Source of the DNA: Vibrio gazogenes
GTDB taxonomy: Bacteria; Pseudomonadota; Gammaproteobacteria; Enterobacterales; Vibrionaceae
Assembly: GCF_023920225.1 (NCBI RefSeq)
Contig: NZ_CP092588.1
Coordinates: 1,116,001 to 1,180,000, forward strand
Length of the DNA stretch: 64,000 nt
Reading direction: 5' to 3'
Shown here: positions 43,975 to 51,355 of the stretch, piece after piece
Layout: each line of letters begins with the position of its first letter
Numbering within the stretch: the first letter of the stretch is position 1
The notes under the pieces: model-generated
The model's database searches: none
What the model was told of the DNA's origin: nothing
Seen by the model: only the letters and a program-made list of their open reading frames with translations
Made by a program: the position numbers and the translations under genes

Positions 43975-44912
43975 AGGTGGCACTGGTTTTATATTCTAAG
44001 CCTTTGGCTCTCATGCATGACGCACAATATATTTTTTCGGTTTCAGAGGCATCGGTGCTCTGTGCGCCAGTTCATCTTTCAACAATGAAAGACGAACCAG
44101 AAAATTCTTTTGGTCTGGCTGAGTCGCACGCTGTCCAGAACCAGCTTTTACGGGCGTCCTGCCCGGAAAAGCTTAATCATTCTTCCCTGAATGATTTTCT
44201 TGGTTGAGGGGCTGATTTGAATTAGGTGGAACATTTATACAGACAAGTTGCTGATGTGGGATCCCTATTTTCAACCTGCTGAATAACTGCCATTGCCACG
44301 GTGTGACCGACTTCCCGTAATCTTACCCACTGAATGCGCCTTTGACGCCCAAGTATGACGCACAATATATTTTCCCGATTTCAGAGGCATCGGTGCTCTG
44401 TGCGCCAGTTCATCTTTCAAGCATGAAAGACGAACCAGAAAATTCTTTTGGGCTGGCTAAGTTGCACGCTGTCCAGAACCAGCTTTTACGGGCGTCCTGC
44501 CCGGAAAAGCTTAATCATTCTTCCTTGAATGATTTTCTTGGTTTAGGGGCTGATTTGAATTAGGTGAAACATTTATACAGACAAGTTGCTTATGTGGACT
44601 CCCTATTTTCAACCTGCTGAATAACTGCCATTGCCACGGTGTGACCCACTGAATGCGCCTTTGACGCCCAAGTATGACGCACAATATATTTTTTCGGTTT
44701 CAGAAGCATTAGTGCTCTGTGCGCCAGTTCATCTTTCAAGAATGAAAGATGAACCAGAAAATTCTTTTGGTCTGGCTGAATCGCACGCTGTCTAGAACCA
44801 GCTTTTACGGGCGTCCTACCCGGAAAAGCTTAATCATTCTTCCATGAATGATTTTCTTAGTTGAGGGGCTGATTTGAATTGGGTGGAACATTTATACAGA
44901 CAAGTTGCTTGT
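43975..44912 (-). repeat. Tandem array of three inverted-orientation multi-hairpin repeats
   Basis: Three copies of the repeat core, at 44018-44210, 44356-44548 and 44675-44866, in minus orientation, with units of 338 and 319 bp. Each core, read on the minus strand, starts CCAAGAAAA and carries a hairpin AATCATTC/GAATGATT, a hairpin TTTTCCGGGC/GCCCGTAAAA, a hairpin GTTCGTCTTTC/GAAAGATGAAC and ends TTGTGCGTCA. The spacers are also repeated (ACATTTATACAGACAAGTTG and CCATTGCCACGGTGTGACC). The last unit breaks off exactly where an integron core site GTTAGGC begins (44911). Short reading frames in it are shared by-products of the repeat. Confidence 0.85.
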
Positions 44913-44919
44913 TAGGCAA

Positions 44920-45447
44920 CTACCCAACCCTTACAGCTGATGTCAAAGTTTCACCAACATTTATATGACAGTTTGTAAAAAGAAGTTTTTCAAACTCTTT
45001 CACAGTCCGAAACATTGTTTCAACTATCTCGGGAGTTAGACAGCTATCCCAAGGACAACTCATTTGCTCACGCAATTCTTCTCGAGTTGTAACATCTGTT
45101 TCAATTTCTATTGGCTCACCATGGGCTACATGATCTCGTAACTCTTTTAACTGCCATAGTTTTTCGTAAAGACCAACACTCTTATCAAATTCAACGCCCG
45201 CCTTGGCACACACTTTCGTTATTTTGTTTTTGTACCTGTCGAATTCTTTCCATTTTGGTATTTTTTTGTATCCAACAAAATTAACCAGCGCCTCAACAGA
45301 GAAAGCCAAAGAGACTAAACAAGATAGGCAATCTAATTTAATGCCATCAAGATTTTCATCCGCTAACTTTTTCCGAATAGTTTCCCGTTGGAAATGAGCT
45401 AAATTCAGAAGATCGTTATGAGGATAAACTTTTACTCGATATGTCAT
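44920..45447 (-). CDS. HEPN-like protein in an integron cassette
   Basis: 175 aa, all-helical in appearance, with no signal peptide. Near the C-terminal third it carries R104-D-H-V-A-H109 (an R-x4-H motif, as in HEPN-superfamily RNases), preceded by a long helix LYEKLWQLKEL. The ATG has a GGAG-containing ribosome site. It is flanked by an attC-like site upstream (45462-45516) and by GTTGCCTAACAAGCAAC just past its stop, consistent with a mobile gene cassette. RNase or toxin activity is inference; no antitoxin partner is adjacent. Confidence 0.6.
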   Translation of the reverse strand: MTYRVKVYPHNDLLNLAHFQRETIRKKLADENLDGIKLDCLSCLVSLAFSVEALVNFVGYKKIPKWKEFDRYKNKITKVCAKAGVEFDKSVGLYEKLWQLKELRDHVAHGEPIEIETDVTTREELREQMSCPWDSCLTPEIVETMFRTVKEFEKLLFTNCHINVGETLTSAVRVG

Positions 45448-45461
45448 ATTTTCTCCTTGTA

Positions 45462-45516
45462 GCCTAACGCATGAAACAATTGCAAAATATATGTCAATTG
45501 ATTCGTCTTGTTAACT
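45462..45516 (-). other. Short integron attC site
   Basis: On the minus strand GTTAAC ... GCGTTAGGC bracket a hairpin in which GAATCAATTG pairs with CAATTGTTTC, leaving one unpaired base; single unpaired bases are typical of attC. It lies directly ahead of the HEPN-like cassette. Confidence 0.55.
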
Positions 45517-45611
45517 GTATAACGGCTTACGCAAAAAATAGTACACCAAAGCAATACGCGACTGTATCATTTACCACCGCTAACTAAAAACAAATATGAA
45601 GTTAAGGCTAT

Positions 45612-46379
45612 ATGGAGCAACTTTCTTTTTTTTCAGTACCAAGTCCTTGCATAGGCGTATGCTCAGTCGATGAAAAGGGGTATTGCAAAGGCTGCATGAG
45701 AAAACGAGAAGAAAGGTTCAACTGGTTGAATTTGACCAACGAACAAAAATTACGAATTATCGAGCAATGTCGCCAACGATATCGCCGAAAAATTACATCT
45801 AGATCAATTTCCACAAACGATGACAACATCACTGGAAAGCAGACTAGCATAGCTCAAAATGATGACTTTTTCAGCCAACTTAAAGACATTGTTGAACAAG
45901 GTGATGTTGATATCGATTCCGATGTCAGAAACGAGCTAGAACAAACCATATTTCAAGGGAAAAGTGTCGATAGTCTTTCCGAAAAGGCATTGAACACAAT
46001 AATTTGGTTACTTAAAAATTTCTTTTTACCTTTTTTTGTTTCATGTATCGCCACCGCATATATGGAAAGAGCTGATTTGATCAGAGATTATTTTTCGAAT
46101 GTTAGCTCAAGTAGAGAGATAAAGAGTGAAATTCGTAAGCAGACATTCGGCAACGATACAAAAACTCTCAGGGTCATAATCGGTAACAACCTCAATCTTC
46201 GAGAAGGACCGGCCAAAAAGCATACCTCATTCGGTACATTGCATCTTGGTGACGTTGTTGAAGTAATAGATAACACTGATAAAAGTTGGATTTATGTGCG
46301 TGTTGTGTTGGATGACGAAGTACTTACAGGTTGGGTATTCAGAAGATATACTAAGAAGCTAAATTATCTGACTAAATAG
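45612..46379 (+). CDS. DUF1289-membrane segment-SH3b fusion protein
   Basis: 255 aa. The N-terminal DUF1289 zinc-binding-like motif has Cys13, Cys17, Cys25, Cys28 (SPCIGVCSVDEKGYCKGCMR) and the helical NLTNEQKLRIIEQCRQRY. A hydrophobic helix follows at about 130-153 (LLKNFFLPFFVSCIATAYM), then a C-terminal bacterial SH3 domain (about 183-250; NLNLREGPAKKHTSFGTLHLGDVVEVI). It is transcribed opposite to its cassette-like neighbours and lies between two attC-like sites. The domain combination is unfamiliar to me; SH3b suggests peptidoglycan or ligand binding outside the membrane. Confidence 0.8.
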   Translation: MEQLSFFSVPSPCIGVCSVDEKGYCKGCMRKREERFNWLNLTNEQKLRIIEQCRQRYRRKITSRSISTNDDNITGKQTSIAQNDDFFSQLKDIVEQGDVDIDSDVRNELEQTIFQGKSVDSLSEKALNTIIWLLKNFFLPFFVSCIATAYMERADLIRDYFSNVSSSREIKSEIRKQTFGNDTKTLRVIIGNNLNLREGPAKKHTSFGTLHLGDVVEVIDNTDKSWIYVRVVLDDEVLTGWVFRRYTKKLNYLTK

Positions 46380-46386
46380 AGATACA

Positions 46387-46460
46387 GTTAACGCCGCAAA
46401 CAGCGGCGAGCGTAGCGAGTCCGGTAGCCAACGACTGCGAACTGATTTGCTTTGTTAGGC
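46387..46460 (-). other. Integron attC site
   Basis: On the minus strand GCCTAAC (46460-46454) and GCGTTAAC (near 46388) bracket a hairpin; GCAAATCAG pairs with CTGTTTGC leaving one bulged T, the classical extrahelical base. The stop codon of the preceding gene overlaps the first core site, as is usual for cassettes. Confidence 0.7.
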
Positions 46461-46772
46461 ATCTTCATTGTCTACGTGAAGGACAAGGGTATTCTTCGTT
46501 ATATGGATATTTGTTTCTTTTGAAGGAGTAAAGAGTACGCAGCCTGCGGAATGCCCTGTTTGGGAGTCTCTAAGATAGTTGCCTCCGGCCCAGCCATTTT
46601 CCTGAGCTTCGCTTGCAAACCAGTGCTTAATATTGTCAGTCATCCGCTTTCTATCGGTGTCATTTGCTTGATTATATAGCGCTATTATTCGTTCATTAGA
46701 ACAAAATACTGCGTTATCTTTCAGTTTGGTATTTTCCGGATTAGGGAAAACAAAGTTTCTACCTTTTGCCAT
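46455..46772 (-). CDS. Small cassette-encoded hypothetical protein
   Basis: 105 aa from the ATG at 46772, which has AAGGAG upstream; an in-frame start at 46802 lacks one and lies next to the attC end. Sequence begins AKGRNFVFPNPENTKLKDNAVF and contains HWFASEAQENGWAGGNYLRDSQTGHSAGCVLF. No known domain recognised, no signal peptide or membrane helix. It is bounded on both sides by attC sites, so it is a typical single-gene cassette. Confidence 0.7.
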   Translation of the reverse strand: MAKGRNFVFPNPENTKLKDNAVFCSNERIIALYNQANDTDRKRMTDNIKHWFASEAQENGWAGGNYLRDSQTGHSAGCVLFTPSKETNIHITKNTLVLHVDNEDA

Positions 46773-46810
46773 ATTCCATCTCCTTTTGGTGTGTAAACTC
46801 AATTACCTAA

Positions 46811-46925
46811 CGCCCTGTTAAGGTGTGAGCAACGCAATACCGATGCCGCCGCATACCACCTTAAACACCAAACACAACGCATAGTAAAAATGCCACGCGT
46901 TGCGAATCACTCTTAAACAGTTTGT
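46811..46925 (-). other. Canonical Vibrio-type attC, interrupted by an IS110 element
   Basis: Read on the minus strand this is the long palindromic Vibrio repeat: ACAAACTGTTTAAGAG at one end, CAACGCGTGGCATTT in the middle and CACACCTTAACAGGGCGTTA at the other, matching the V. parahaemolyticus/V. cholerae repeat pattern. Its first bases (TAACAAAC) are displaced to 48116-48124 by the insertion of the IS110 element; joining the flanks restores an uninterrupted site. Confidence 0.88.
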
Positions 46926-46998
46926 ATGGGAAATTATCCCCATTAATCGACCTGTTTCGGGTAATGTGAGACCCAGGCTTTAGCTGCAACTAAAGCTT

Positions 46999-47070
46999 TC
47001 TATGTCGTAGTTCGATTGAACGCTGGCTCCTCTATCGAGAGACCGATAACAAACATGAACGCGACATAGA
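46999..47070 (+). ncRNA. Candidate bridge-RNA target loop of the IS110 element
   Basis: TCTATGTCG (46999-47007) pairs with CGACATAGA (47062-47070), closing a 54-nt loop in the non-coding region ahead of the transposase, where IS110 elements encode a bridge RNA. The loop holds ATAACAAAC (47046-47054), perfectly complementary to the right target GTTTGTTAT (48116-48124), and TTGAACG (47016-47022), which can pair, with two G-T wobbles, to the bottom strand of the left target TTAAACA (46913-46919). Structure and guides are predicted by eye. Confidence 0.55.
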
Positions 47071-47141
47071 ACTCCAAGCACTAAACTCGAATACTCGACT
47101 GGGTCTCGAACCCGCATTACGCAAGCAAGAGTTAGCTTATT

Positions 47142-48098
47142 ATGAATACAAACACACTTCAAAATATTAATGTCGGTGTTGATACCGGCAAAGCAAATCT
47201 AGATATCTATATCCGCCCACTTGATATCTTTTTTACGGTTTCTAATGATGGTAAAGGAATAAAAGAAGCGGTAAAAGTCATCAAGAAACATCAGCCTGAA
47301 CGCATCGTTATCGAAGCAACCGGCCGCCTTGAAATGCCTTTTATTATCGCCTGTTCCAAAGCCAATTTACCTTTTGTAATTGCCAATCCTATCCACATTA
47401 AACGCTTCGCTGGCGCTATTGGCCGCAGAGCTAAAACGGATAAACTGGATGCTCAATTAATCGCTCATTATAGCGAAGCCATTCAACCTCAACTGACCCA
47501 GTTAAAACCAGAAATCATGCGATTAATGAGTGATTTAGTCGCCCGTCGACATCAAATTTTAACGATGCAAACCATGGAAAAGAATCGCTTACAACAACTC
47601 CCTAAAACGCTTCATTCCACAATCAATCCTATCATTACTTCCTTCAAAAATCAGATAGAGAAGATCGAAACACTCATCATTGCTCTCATTGAAAAAACGC
47701 CTTCTTATCAGAGCAAAAATATCATTTTACAAAGTGTCCCAGGCATCGGGAAAGTGAGTGCGGCCGCCATCATTAGCAACGTTCCTGAGCTGGGTTACAT
47801 CAACAATAAACAAGCGGCTTCTCTAATAGGTGTTGCTCCCATGAATAGAGAAAGTGGCCGCTATAAAGGCAAACGAATTATCCAAGGTGGGCGTGCTCAG
47901 GTGCGTACAGTCCTGTATATGGCGATGATGTCTGCAATGCAATCTAACCCTGTTTTTAAGACCACATATCAGCGATTACTGGAAGCAGGAAAACCCAAAA
48001 AAGTAGCCATCATTGCCTGTGTTAGAAAGATGGTTGTGATCCTGAATTCAATGCTAAGAGACGGAACTATGTGGAATGAAAATATGGCGAAAAATTAA
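47142..48098 (+). CDS. IS110-family transposase (DEDD recombinase)
   Basis: 318 aa. The RuvC-like N-terminal domain carries D14 (VGVDTGKA), E58 (IVIEATG), D100 and D103 (AKTDKLDA), the DEDD set. The C-terminal transposase_20 domain (SVPGIGKVSAAAIIS ... ASLIGVAPMNRESGRYKGKR) has the conserved Ser in MNRESG thought to be the nucleophile. Frame and key residues are intact, so it may be active. It is carried within an attC site. Confidence 0.95.
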   Translation: MNTNTLQNINVGVDTGKANLDIYIRPLDIFFTVSNDGKGIKEAVKVIKKHQPERIVIEATGRLEMPFIIACSKANLPFVIANPIHIKRFAGAIGRRAKTDKLDAQLIAHYSEAIQPQLTQLKPEIMRLMSDLVARRHQILTMQTMEKNRLQQLPKTLHSTINPIITSFKNQIEKIETLIIALIEKTPSYQSKNIILQSVPGIGKVSAAAIISNVPELGYINNKQAASLIGVAPMNRESGRYKGKRIIQGGRAQVRTVLYMAMMSAMQSNPVFKTTYQRLLEAGKPKKVAIIACVRKMVVILNSMLRDGTMWNENMAKN

Positions 48099-48139
48099 CT
48101 ATTGACGCCATACTCGTTTGTTATGTTACGGTCTGATTT

Positions 48140-48676
48140 CTATGCTAATTTTTGGATTAAGCGATCTGAAATACTCTTCGATACACCTAACCATTCCATT
48201 GCTTCAGCCTTAGTAAGATCAATTCCACTCACATGCACAATTTCATTTCTCAAACGATACATTTTTAGAATTAGATCGGCTAAACCACTATCAATCTTCT
48301 CTGAACCTTGTAATTGCCGAACTATCTTGGTAATTGGCTGACGCTTACCGTCAGATCCTTTAGTTATAAGGATATTCTCGATATTTTGCCAAGATTGTAA
48401 AAATGCCCATTCTGGTGCTGTCTGCACTAATTCTAAATCACTAGCACTAAAAGACGAGCTAGGATAAGCAATGGTGATTCCTAATTCTATTGCATCACCT
48501 TTGACTTCATCGATAGCTTCAACCAGATCAATTTCTATATCGCCATACTTTGCTTTTTTTACTCGTTGTAATAGCTTGGCAACATCTTTTTTGAAGTACA
48601 ACAATGCTCCTGCGACGACTATTGGCCAAGCCAAATGTCCCACAAGATCAACAACTAACTTTAAATACTCGATCAT
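48140..48676 (-). CDS. Membrane-anchored HEPN-like protein
   Basis: 178 aa. One N-terminal membrane helix (LVGHLAWPIVVAGALLYF, about 11-28), a charged coiled segment (YGDIEIDLVEAIDEVKG), and a C-terminal helical domain with R143-N-E-I-V-H148, an R-x4-H motif like that of HEPN RNases and DUF4145-type proteins. Its stop is followed by the displaced half of the Vibrio attC, so it is the cassette whose attC the IS110 element split. Function unknown; defence or stress role is inference. Confidence 0.65.
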   Translation of the reverse strand: MIEYLKLVVDLVGHLAWPIVVAGALLYFKKDVAKLLQRVKKAKYGDIEIDLVEAIDEVKGDAIELGITIAYPSSSFSASDLELVQTAPEWAFLQSWQNIENILITKGSDGKRQPITKIVRQLQGSEKIDSGLADLILKMYRLRNEIVHVSGIDLTKAEAMEWLGVSKSISDRLIQKLA

Positions 48677-48690
48677 TTACCTTTCCACTT

Positions 48691-48745
48691 GAGTAACATA
48701 ACAGTTTATTATACAGAATCACTCTACAGGAATACTTCTGTATAA
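48691..48745 (-). other. attC-like hairpin ahead of the membrane HEPN cassette
   Basis: TTATACAGAA (48709-48718) and TTCTGTATAA (48736-48745) form a perfect 10-bp stem with a 17-nt loop next to GTAACATAACAG. Size and position suit a short attC, but the core sites are degenerate. Confidence 0.4.
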
Positions 48746-49117
48746 CTTACTGACACTCGATGAAATTTTTGTCCTAATAACATGAAAATACAGACAAAAT
48801 GCCAGTAAAAAATATCATTACATCAGGAATCACAGCATTGTGCTGTCTAATCTGCGCACGAATGATTCACCAGTGCTACCACCATTCGGAACATCTCGGA
48901 TAAGTGCCATGTGTTCTCGAATAAGCATCGAAACACCATACATAGCATTGAATAAGTTGCAGAAAATCGCCAGAAAAAATTGACATAAACATGACATTTT
49001 TTGATATGGATAAGGTTTGTACAAAATTGCAGCGTTTTAACAATCAGTGGAAATTGTGATGCGGTGGTTTAGTGCGCGATGACATTCCTGAGTTTAGTAA
49101 CTCATTTAGCTTCAACA
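48746..49117. other. Intergenic stretch with no clear gene
   Basis: Contains a 64-codon minus-strand frame (48830-49024) with hydrophobic start LCQFFLAIFCNLFNAMYGVSML and end VPNGGSTGESFVRRLDSTML. It lacks a convincing ribosome site and is not called; a small membrane peptide or gene remnant is possible. Confidence 0.4.
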
Positions 49118-49244
49118 AATGTTTCACTCAATTCAAATCAAGCACCAAACCAAGAAACCCATTCTCCCGTGAATGATTTTCTTGGTTTAGGGATCTATTG
49201 GGATTGGATTAAAATGCCAAGTGTTGGGAAGATAGTGAAACATT
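49118..49244. mobile_element. 127-bp MITE-like short member of the multi-hairpin family
   Basis: Bounded by perfect 10-bp terminal inverted repeats AATGTTTCAC/GTGAAACATT. The centre is an 11-bp hairpin AAACCAAGAAA/TTTCTTGGTTT (49147-49157, 49178-49188) enclosing ATTC/GAAT, equivalent to the first hairpin of the full-length repeats. The left half follows their 5' flank (TTCAAATCAAGCACCAAACC). It is best described as two facing 5' ends of the repeat with everything else deleted. Confidence 0.6.
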
Positions 49245-49264
49245 AACGATTGACGTCATACTCG
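49242..49264 (+). mobile_element. Solo right end of an IS110-like element
   Basis: 21 of 23 bases match the right end of the intact IS110 element (48094-48116), again directly beyond a cassette gene stop codon. No transposase is attached, so it is probably the scar of a deleted relative. Confidence 0.5.
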
Positions 49265-49268
49265 TTTA

Positions 49269-49700
49269 TTACCCATCTTGAACCCCAACCATTGAAAAGT
49301 GGTGACTCGCGATATTGAAACCTTCGCGTAAATAGAATTTATGTGCGGGAAAACGCTGAACACCAGAATCCAGATGAATTTGCTCACAACCAATTTCTAA
49401 GGCGTACGTTTTAAACCAATCAATTATGAATTTGCCAACGCCACGCGAACGAAATTGAGAGTTAGTCACCAAGTCTTCAATATAAATGTGCTTACCCCAA
49501 GCTAGCTTCTCACCGACACTAAATCCTGCTACGGCCAGTACACCTTCTGATGATTTAACATAAACGACTTTGTAACCATTCAATTGCTGTTTGTCGATCT
49601 GACGAGATAAAGTATCTACATTGTAATTTGGGCGAAGTTGTAACATTACCTCTAGGGCTGATTCATAATCAGAATTTTTCTCTAAAAATCGAACTTCCAT
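49269..49700 (-). CDS. GNAT-family N-acetyltransferase
   Basis: 143 aa from the ATG at 49700 (TGGAG upstream); a longer in-frame start overlaps the previous gene and lacks support. The acetyl-CoA-binding motif is QFRSRGVGKFIIDW, followed by LDSGVQRFPAHKFYLREGF. Substrate unknown; GNATs are common integron-cassette cargo. Nearest neighbour is a GrpB-family gene 31 bp upstream. Confidence 0.88.
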   Translation of the reverse strand: MEVRFLEKNSDYESALEVMLQLRPNYNVDTLSRQIDKQQLNGYKVVYVKSSEGVLAVAGFSVGEKLAWGKHIYIEDLVTNSQFRSRGVGKFIIDWFKTYALEIGCEQIHLDSGVQRFPAHKFYLREGFNIASHHFSMVGVQDG

Positions 49701-49731
49701 GTTTTCTCCATTTTGACGGCATAGCTTCTTG

Positions 49732-50253
49732 TTATGTAAATTTCCACCGGACTGCCTTTGCTTCATATTCTTTTATAAAGCTATTTTTGTAATCAATGTA
49801 AACATCTATGTCATTGTTACAAATTGCTGCACCCGCCTTTTTAATTTCTCCGTACTTAAACGCAATATTTGGGAACGCTCTTAAATAATCTCGAAATGCG
49901 AGATGTCTTTTAACTTCTGGCGAATCTGCTAAAAATGCATGGACTTGATGAGTTCGTTGTATTCCGCCTTTTTGGAAATAACGGCGACCTTTGATACCAA
50001 ACTCTCCCTTCACCAAATATCCCAGAGAAGCCATATTTTCTGATTCATCATCTAATGTATCAAGGCTTGTTACTTCCAAAAGGATATCGATAATTGGTTT
50101 AGCACATAATCCTTTAACCGATGTACTGCCTATGTGATGTATTGCATGAATATTAGCGGCAGTTAGAACAGAACTAATTAGATCTTTTTCTCTAGCAAAA
50201 TCGACAACCCACTGCGGCTGATAATCAATGACTTCAATAATCCTTTGACTCAT
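49732..50253 (-). CDS. GrpB/UPF0157 family nucleotidyltransferase-fold protein
   Basis: 173 aa. Family hallmarks are VVDFAREKDLISSVL, IHHIGSTSVKGLCAKPIIDILLEV and the HLAFRDYLRAFPNIAFKYGEIK block. GrpB proteins have a minimal nucleotidyltransferase fold; biochemical role unknown. The stop codon sits in CATAACAAG, a cassette-end type sequence, and an attC-like stretch lies upstream. Confidence 0.9.
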   Translation of the reverse strand: MSQRIIEVIDYQPQWVVDFAREKDLISSVLTAANIHAIHHIGSTSVKGLCAKPIIDILLEVTSLDTLDDESENMASLGYLVKGEFGIKGRRYFQKGGIQRTHQVHAFLADSPEVKRHLAFRDYLRAFPNIAFKYGEIKKAGAAICNNDIDVYIDYKNSFIKEYEAKAVRWKFT

Positions 50254-50267
50254 AACTTCCTATTTAC

Positions 50268-50443
50268 CTAACACTGAGCGAAGCCGCGCATTCACTTAAC
50301 TAACAACAAAACAAAACTTAAAAACACATGCGCCGGACATTTATGCGTCTGCTTGAGCGTCTTGCATCCTCTGATGGCTAACGTTAGCAACAGCAGCAAA
50401 CTAGAGCCTAAGCAATTAGTCTGTCTGATGATTGCTTTTGTTA
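50268..50443 (-). other. attC-like spacer between the YCII and GrpB cassettes
   Basis: On the minus strand a short hairpin AAGCAAT/ATTGCTT begins right at the stop of the upstream gene (GTAACAAAAGC) and is followed by TTAGGC; the spacer ends with GCTTCGCTCAGTGTTAGGT, a classic attC right end, 15 bp before the GrpB start. It may be one long or two fused attC sites. Confidence 0.45.
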
Positions 50444-50770
50444 CGTTTGTGAGCTAGCACGATTAGCTTCTGTTTGCGGATCTGCTACTAGCCAGTTATT
50501 CATGGCGTTTGCTTCTATTAATTCTTTTACCACCAACTCACCATAATAGCCCTGACTTACAAATGGATCGGATTGAACAATTTCCTTAGCTGCCTCTAAA
50601 CTATCTGACATTATTACTTGAATTGCTGAATCATTGTCCGAAAACGGACCGCATAGCACCAAAACTCCTGACTTCTCTTGAGCCTTAAGATAGCTTACAT
50701 GCTTACGTAAAAGTTCATCGCTGAATAACTGTCTATTTTTCTTAGACAAAATTGCCACATACTTATTCAT
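50441..50770 (-). CDS. YCII-family protein
   Basis: 109 aa from the ATG at 50770 with AGGAAAAGGAAG upstream; an in-frame start at 50827 has none. The YCII fold is suggested by YVAILSKKNRQLF, the His in RKHVSYLKAQEKSGVLVLCGPFSD and SLEAAKEIVQSDPFVSQGYYGELVVKEL. These ferredoxin-fold proteins carry a conserved His-Asp pair; function uncertain. A cassette-type gene. Confidence 0.85.
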   Translation of the reverse strand: MNKYVAILSKKNRQLFSDELLRKHVSYLKAQEKSGVLVLCGPFSDNDSAIQVIMSDSLEAAKEIVQSDPFVSQGYYGELVVKELIEANAMNNWLVADPQTEANRASSQT

Positions 50771-50950
50771 ATACTTCCTTTTCCTTTGAACATAGACATA
50801 ATGACTCCCCACGAGGCTAGCTTCCAATTCCGTGGGTTAGTGTAAAACCAGATCCATAATTAGTGTGTCAACAACTAAATCATGGAAGCTAGCATGATTG
50901 AACATAGCATAGTTTTTATAGGGCTGGCACTCATAAGGATTCTACCCCGT

Positions 50951-51355
50951 TTTCACGGATGAATGGTTAGGCTTTTCCGGGTAGGACATCCGTAAAATCC
51001 GTGCCCGGACAGTACGTGACTCAGCCAAACAAAAAAGATCTTCTGGTTACGCTTGCATCTCGGCAAAAGTCACTCGCGCACAAGACACCAATGCATCTGA
51101 AACCGAAAAACGAGATTGTGCGTCAAATTTGGGAGCCGGAGGCTAGGCAAATAAAACTTGTGATGTAGGTGTTTGGGACGCAATTACTTTCCTTGATCTC
51201 ATTAACATCTCCGAAAGCGCCCCAGATACTTTTTCACGGCAGAAAAAGTATCCCAAAATGCCTAAGATTTGAGTTCAGCGTACATAATCAGGGGCGCTTT
51301 TATTCGCTCCTGCTCACGAAAAGCTTAAAATTCATCCATGAATTTTACCCTGAGT
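50951..51355 (+). repeat. Multi-hairpin repeat, B-type copy with long 3' extension
   Basis: Core to 51144 (first hairpin partly lost: TTTCACGGATGAATGGTT), then hairpin II TTTTCCGGGT/ATCCGTAAAA, a decayed hairpin III, and TTGTGCGTCA. The extension has GATACTTTTTC/GAAAAAGTATC (51225-51252) and AAAATTC/GAATTTT. Orientation plus. The most diverged full copy. Confidence 0.75.

Follow-up and report, generated by a model that had tools for sequence, protein, structure and literature searches.

A probable bridge RNA upstream of the transposase gene of an attC-inserted IS110-group element in Vibrio gazogenes

Introduction

The bridge RNA and the seekRNA have already been described (PMC11208160, PMC11187229, PMC11208158), as has attC targeting by RNA-guided IS1111 elements (PMC11187229). 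In this report, we analyse a 64,000-nucleotide stretch of Vibrio gazogenes DNA (hereafter, the window), that is, C2:1116001-1180000 of a 4.71 Mb genome in two contigs, where an insertion sequence (IS) of the IS110 group interrupts an attC site. We put the probability that positions 46959-47140 encode a bridge RNA of this element, which would guide its insertion by sequence, at roughly 0.93. Features of the window lie on the plus strand unless stated otherwise.

For ISEc21, a member of the IS110 family, transposition has been reported to require the RNA in trans once the transposase is expressed from a foreign leader (PMC11187229), and 5,511 RNA-target pairs have been published (PMC11208160), among which members of the clade described here may be found. 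A study of Shewanella integrons reports IS110 elements within the arrays and says that no IS interrupting attC sites was detected in its analysis (PMC9229058). Among the top-listed open-access papers, which defined our search (preprints, most subscription papers and supplements fell outside it), no title or opening of an abstract described IS110-group elements guided to attC. Post and Hall, and Tetu and Holmes, are said to have reported attC targeting by IS1111 elements.

Element Boundaries and the Second Copy

The IS spans 46923..48118 (1196 bp, starting just after the left core and including the right core) and comprises a non-coding left end of 219 nt (46923 to 47141), the transposase gene (47142..48098), and a right end (48099..48118) that holds TTGACG (48102-48107), the left donor and the donor core TT. 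Its boundaries were set by means of a second copy (L001), which has the same transposase and left end in other flanks, and by the eight empty sites of that copy; because the same junction logic applies to the window copy, the core is read as TT and the right target as TGTTATG. On the left, the interrupted attC runs from R'' (ACCTAAC) through L' to the left core TT (46806..46922) and ends in the left target CTTAAACAG plus this core (46912..46922), and on the right, the target TGTTATG (48119..48125) is the R' box of the same attC.

The second copy lies on the other contig and shares both its transposase and its 216-nt left end with the window copy at 100% identity. Its joined flanks match with 100% identity over all 93 bases at eight places in the genome, besides the copy's own halves. 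The one intact place that was inspected (L113, C2:656960) holds an element that is not interrupted and carries helix-turn-helix and DDE_3 genes; we take it to be of the IS630 type. Insertion split the target TTTGAACGC-GT-TGTTATCC into a left junction ending in GCGTTGTATGGG and a right junction ending in ACTCGTTTGTTATCC, with no target duplication.

The same loop at an unrelated target would have spoken against guiding. L001 does carry this loop at a target that is not an attC, but its guides match that target in 8/9 bases on the left and 7/7 on the right (TGTTATC), which is better than the match of the window copy to its attC, and because of this good match, L001 supports guiding. Of the nine occurrences of the target stretch seen in L113, only the one that holds L001 is split; the eight intact ones match TTGAACGCGTTGTTA, so that 8/9 good sites stand empty.

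Structure of the Predicted Upstream RNA

The original prediction singled out a 9-bp stem that closes a 54-nt loop upstream of the transposase, and this stem sits inside 10-bp perfect arms (46998-47007 / 47062-47071). Folding of the 216-nt region 46926-47141, which had been proposed as a check, gave -69.3 kcal/mol against a shuffle mean of -47.5 (sd 4.38; z -4.98), a value that none of 200 shuffles equalled. Homologues also show a conserved structure with covariation.

The putative bridge RNA region (46959..47140) was modelled on a 52-sequence alignment whose first row is identical to the window. It begins with a 7-bp 5' stem-loop (46977..46996), with 98.4% of cells paired and 4/7 pairs changed on both sides. 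The target-binding loop (47000..47069) follows, closed by a stem of 9 bp, a bulged A and 4 bp (94.5% of cells paired, 7/13 pairs double-changed). The donor-binding loop (47076..47137) comes last; its outer 4 bp are 99.5% paired, CTC/GAG is constant in 52/52 sequences, and in the apical GGGT/ACCC one pair is changed on both sides. The inner donor stem is weak (72.1% paired), and the TAA/TTA part of the stem is poorly conserved.

Across the 52 sequences, the two-loop model, which was partly derived from the window sequence itself, has 93.1% of cells paired versus 87.6 in shuffles, 13 double-changed pairs versus 8.9, and 123 double-change cells versus 33.6. With the partners displaced by one to three bases, pairing falls to 28.6-44.1%.

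An alternative helix between the 5' end and the donor loop (10-18/143-151) has 92.9% of cells paired and few double changes (2 pairs, 8 cells). Since both of these alternative pairings keep some compensatory changes, a switch between the donor-loop hairpin and the 10-18/143-151 helix is possible. Two mutually exclusive folds, both with some compensatory change and placed directly 5' of the start codon, would also suit a leader or attenuator that regulates the transposase mRNA in cis and contains no guide. Such a leader would not track the DNA that flanks each insertion or the right end of the element, and we regard it as extremely improbable; the upstream RNA may nevertheless have a regulatory side role.

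Putative Guides in the Window Copy

In the window, the putative left target guide is TTGAACGCT (47016..47024), and the right target guide is GATAACA plus AA, the complement of the core TT (47045..47053). The former is identified by covariation with left flanks over 75 distinct pairs, the latter by compensatory changes and its match to R'. The putative donor guides are ATACTCG on the left (47091..47097), which is the same as the right end at 48110-48116, and ATTACGCAAG on the right (47116..47125). By eye, the handshake-guide bases 3' of the right guide follow no clear rule.

The TTGAACG stretch (starting at 47016) had been said to pair with the left target with two wobbles, and this is the case: TTGAACGCT and CTTAAACAG agree exactly in 6/9 positions, with two G-T wobbles and one mismatch. 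For the right side, perfect complementarity had been claimed between ATAACAAAC (47046-47054) and GTTTGTTAT (48116-48124). Both sequences are present, and the empty attC rebuilt from the joined flanks also reads GTTTGTTAT, but G48116 and the TT that follows it (48117-48118) are still part of the IS, at its right end, and the target DNA there is only TGTTAT(G) from 48119. A perfect 9-mer match taken alone is weak evidence; it is the family statistics that lift it above chance.

Covariation of the Left Guide with Its Target

The transposase was found at E<=1e-60 in 21/100 genomes, the source genome included. A contig collection contained 143 relatives, and the best 80 of the 143 yielded 79 loci. 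From 112 loci collected in all, 110 gave a transposase alignment (L005 and L006 being the exceptions) and 99 had the conserved target-loop core; 83 of those also had a readable left flank, and 75 remained after repeated combinations of guide and flank were dropped. Matches at 60-80% identity were also found in sixteen plasmid records, some of which probably repeat the same elements, and the top rows name Pseudoalteromonas, Vibrio, Photobacterium and Salinivibrio.

Guides change with targets among these homologues, as the original prediction proposed to examine. In the 75 distinct pairs, the left guide matches its own flank, at the better of two registers, in 6.36/9 bases versus 4.85 (sd 0.12) for shuffled pairs, a level not reached in any of 20,000 shuffles, and matches of at least 7 occur in 43/75 pairs versus 21% of shuffled pairs. 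Counted by guide class (36 classes), the values are 6.34 versus 4.29 (sd 0.19; 0/20,000), and for the thirteen guides outside the common type, they are 6.69 versus 3.88 (0/20,000).

When flanks were shuffled within host groups only, a test in which the guide was shifted one base to the IS621 definition, the match was 6.76 versus 5.51 (sd 0.12; 0/20,000). It was 6.38 versus 4.54 in the 34 pairs from other families (0/20,000) and 7.71 versus 5.76 in the 7 pairs from Vibrionaceae other than Vibrio (81/20,000).

Is It the attC or the Sequence That Is Read?

A test for hairpins with short arms proved too weak to call attC sites (3/75 targets above the 98% null); a longer arm and the R''-L'' motif were used in its place. 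The longer-arm test placed 21/75 targets above the 98% null, and the motif stands upstream of 33/75 distinct targets versus 2.7% of random windows. Altogether, 39/75 targets pass one or other test, a rough count that is probably low.

This association could mean that the transposase reads the folded attC hairpin or the protein-binding boxes, with the guide-like letters as a by-product of attC bias. The composition of attC sites lends itself to such a reading: many have TTAAAYGC and TTGTTA, so that one guide type fits many sites, and shuffled matches are already high, above all in Vibrio. We consider it very unlikely on three counts. The 36 targets that were not called attC, some of which are surely missed attC sites, match their guides at least as well (7.0/9 versus 5.11 shuffled, 0/3,000); the identical copy L001 interrupts an IS630-type gene, where the linear match is near-perfect and eight empty twins exist; and unusual guides accompany unusual flanks (L111, L090, L081, L075 and L103). 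The proposal that the guide explains attC specificity needs rewording: the specificity would be for a sequence frequently present in attC sites, not for attC itself.

Registers, Right Guide and Donor Side

A single register for the left guide, which was assumed first, gave a weaker signal, and two adjacent registers carry it. Own pairs beat shuffles both with the canonical spacing and with one base more (0/2,000 each), and no excess was found at shifts of -1, +2 and +3 (829, 619 and 1,272 of 2,000 shuffles). The best register over the 75 pairs is the canonical one in 28, that with one extra base in 42, and a tie in 5; the 43 strong pairs divide into 22 canonical and 21 shifted. One guide uses both registers, TTAAACGCT meeting CTTAAACGCTTTGTTA in L018 and TTAAACGCTTGTTA in L034. 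The shifted register is not a mere artefact of T-runs, because L001, which is of the shifted kind, has eight exact empty sites.

The right guide is near-fixed, with TAA and one later A invariant in the 52 aligned sequences. Its departures are mirrored in the targets (TAATAA/TTATTA in L075 and TAACGAA/TTCGTTA in L074), a covariation that consists of only two independent changes. The right flank disagrees with the right guide in L019 and L067 (TTATGTGG), in L083 (TTGCATGG), and in L026 (TTCTTAT, with guide GCTAACAAG); some of these may be later rearrangements. The second base of the core is T in 75/75.

On the donor side, where loci were counted without removal of duplicates, the left donor guide agrees in 7/7 bases with the right end of the element that carries it in 85/89 loci, and the classes that agree include ATAGTCT, ATAGTCG, ATACTCG, ATAGTCA and ATAGCCC. 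In 88/89 loci, the two bases of the right guide that face the core follow the donor core, reading AA where it is TT and AG where it is CT. The right donor guide has the form AT, 1-4 bases, GCAA in 49/54 sequences and is exactly ATTTGCAAG, the IS621 form, in 10/54.

Weighing the Evidence

Several observations count against a guiding bridge RNA. The window copy itself reaches only the 6/9 left match given above, and 4/75 pairs match in at most 4/9 bases (3 in L042; 4 in L023, L099 and L003, the last being the 83% copy of the source genome). The 34 Vibrio pairs gain little (6.94 versus 6.43, with 3/20,000 shuffles as high), and the shuffle statistics as a whole ignore kinship, that is, the element tree. 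The minimum-energy fold and RNAalifold favour pairing of the 5' part with the donor loop. An Rfam search of 44000-51000 at E<=1 returned no bridge RNA family, giving only three sub-threshold TwoAYGGAY matches and one chance miRNA match, and outside the donor-guide motif, the RNA has no significant sequence similarity to that of IS621 (best local score 24; shuffled median 23, 95% 28).

We nevertheless favour a bridge RNA. The predicted arrangement, with the left guide 5' and the right guide 3' in an RNA upstream of the transposase, has gained support from family covariation, from the donor-guide match and from the compensatory changes in the stems. The RNA architecture, the covariation of guide with target and of guide with donor, and an exact empty site are all demonstrable by comparing sequences.

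Transposase and Expression Signals

The 318-aa transposase has both the DEDD RuvC-like domain and the catalytic-serine Tnp domain (Pfam PF01548 and PF02371) and matches the NCBIfam model NF033542 (IS110 family RNA-guided transposase) with 212.8 bits, the cut-off being 140. Its closest solved structures are ISCro4 (PDB 9t56; E 6.6e-29) and IS621 (E 1.9e-28). Residues D14, E58, D100, D103 and S238, assigned by way of motifs and not by computed residue numbers, fall in the motifs GxD, IEATG, KTDxxDA and ESG common to the IS621 alignment.

No promoter-like site was found in 46900-47200. At the junction of the predicted circle, a right-end TTGAC and a left-end GATAAT stand at one fixed spacing in 39/46 distinct junctions. 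The window copy is among the 7/46 that have no such arrangement, and since GGAAAT replaces GATAAT in it, its own promoter may be weak.

The Cassette Array and Neighbouring Repeats

The rebuilt 138-base attC matches 179/196 genomes of the same genus at E<=1e-10, with four candidates scored per genome as a rule; among the matches listed, that of the window itself aside, the alignment crosses the insertion point (query base 125) and reaches at least base 130. Around the IS, other attC-like ends were recognized by eye at 44905-44917 and 46444-46460, together with small cassette-like genes. A window scan for TGTTATC (at most one mismatch, fixed gap) gave nothing notable, its narrow criteria making it little informative: it called attC at 1/45 TGTTA[TG] sites of the window and missed the attC ends that are visible by eye.

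No integron integrase scored above the cut-off in this genome (best 73.7 bits versus 265), so that this looks like a cassette array without its integrase. A short stretch on the same contig (C2:927571-927672), with internal stops, resembles the integron integrase model over its first 34 positions (E 6e-4); it is possibly an integrase remnant.

Besides the two full copies and the 83% copy, the genome contains fragments of the element. Left-end fragments of this IS family lie on the larger contig at C1:2241666-2241713 (L125) and C1:2244741-2244779 (L126); the latter comes after an attC-like arm, which points to a second degraded cassette array there. In the window, a 43-nt stretch (49229-49271) shares 84% identity with the right end of the IS (48081-48123) and has CATACTCGTTTATTA near its end, and because of this resemblance, an older related element may once have been located there.

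Three direct 300-nt repeats occupy window positions 44000-44956, spaced by 338 and 319, the second and third being 94% and 83% identical to the first. Each contains one of the sub-threshold TwoAYGGAY matches, on the minus strand, and a 54-nt part of the repeats recurs at 49160-49213.

Proposed Mechanism and Significance

For transcription, RNA-protein binding and chemistry, we infer the following course. The transposase and the bridge RNA would excise the element as a circle that joins the right end, the core and the left end. The donor-binding loop (ATACTCG and ATTACGCAAG) would then hold the circle junction while the target-binding loop holds the new site. To the left of the core, TTGAACGCT would pair with the bottom strand, and to its right, GATAACA with the top strand. 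Strand exchange would take place at a core with T in second position, and insertion would leave no target duplication. With a right guide that reads as the R' box and a left guide that reads as a common L' arm, the element would often settle in an attC of a chromosomal integron, yet it would take other linear DNA with a good match.

It is likely that RNA guiding lets a whole IS110-group clade, found in Vibrio, Shewanella, Photobacterium, Pseudoalteromonas and relatives, live largely on attC sites. In this clade, the right guide would be fixed to the R' box, which the integron integrase requires, the left guide would be naturally reprogrammed over variants of the L' arm, and a one-base slip between left guide and core would let one RNA fit both attC spacings; this would be a second, independent RNA-guided route to attC beside that of the IS1111-attC elements.

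The reading suggests that a short RNA, by reading the sequence and not the folded attC, would decide where an attC-seeking element lands. The clade would then be a recurring parasite of integron arrays, whose insertion splits the attC between L' and R'; from the anatomy of attC, such a split should block use of that site by the integrase. If true, it also supplies a set of bridge RNAs that were reprogrammed in nature and whose targets are known. From these dozens of guide/target pairs, with compensation in the right guide and two spacings among them, the rules of bridge RNA targeting could be read and tested.

Comparison with Known Systems

At the level of the protein only, the best PDB match of the window transposase is ISCro4. 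ISEc21, for which a seekRNA has been shown, resembles the window element in its upstream non-coding region, in a strand-match order reversed with respect to IS1111 and in the lack of target duplication (PMC11187229); its target, by contrast, is a transposase gene of the IS3 family, not an attC.

The IS1111-attC elements (ISKpn4, ISPst6, ISPa25; seekRNA) share with the window element an RNA-guided DEDD transposase and a target at one end of attC (PMC11187229), and one might assign it to this type on those grounds. In those elements, however, the RNA lies downstream of the gene, the guide order is reversed, and the subterminal inverted repeats are long. In the window, only 20 nt separate the transposase stop from the end of the right core, the RNA region lies upstream of the gene instead, and the left guide precedes the right one. 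The subterminal repeat, from ends read by eye, is 6 bp (CCATAC/GTATGG), not 11-13 bp, and the transposase aligns over its length with IS621 (the alignment was with IS621, not with IS1111 proteins). That the element is of the ISKpn4/ISPst6 type has next to no chance of being right, and IS1111-attC appears to be a separate group that arrived at the same kind of target.

The window element and IS621 both have an upstream RNA with a 5' stem-loop, a target loop and then a donor loop, with the same guide strands, and both have TGTAT as right donor and a DEDD plus serine transposase; in most relatives, a candidate -35 box in the right end and a candidate -10 box in the left end recall those of IS621. 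The window element differs in its longer right guide, in the two registers of the left target and in the donor core TT of the window copy. IS621 reportedly targets repetitive extragenic palindromic (REP) elements, and the window element lands in an attC. The core has T as second base in both, and ATTTGCAAG, the nine letters found in relatives of the window element, stands just before the IS621 transposase gene, in a stretch for which a pairing has been published (PMC11208158). So far as the literature listings reach, what would be new beside the known IS1111-attC elements is an attC clade of the IS110 group that has its RNA upstream, keeps the right guide fixed to the R' box and tolerates two spacings.
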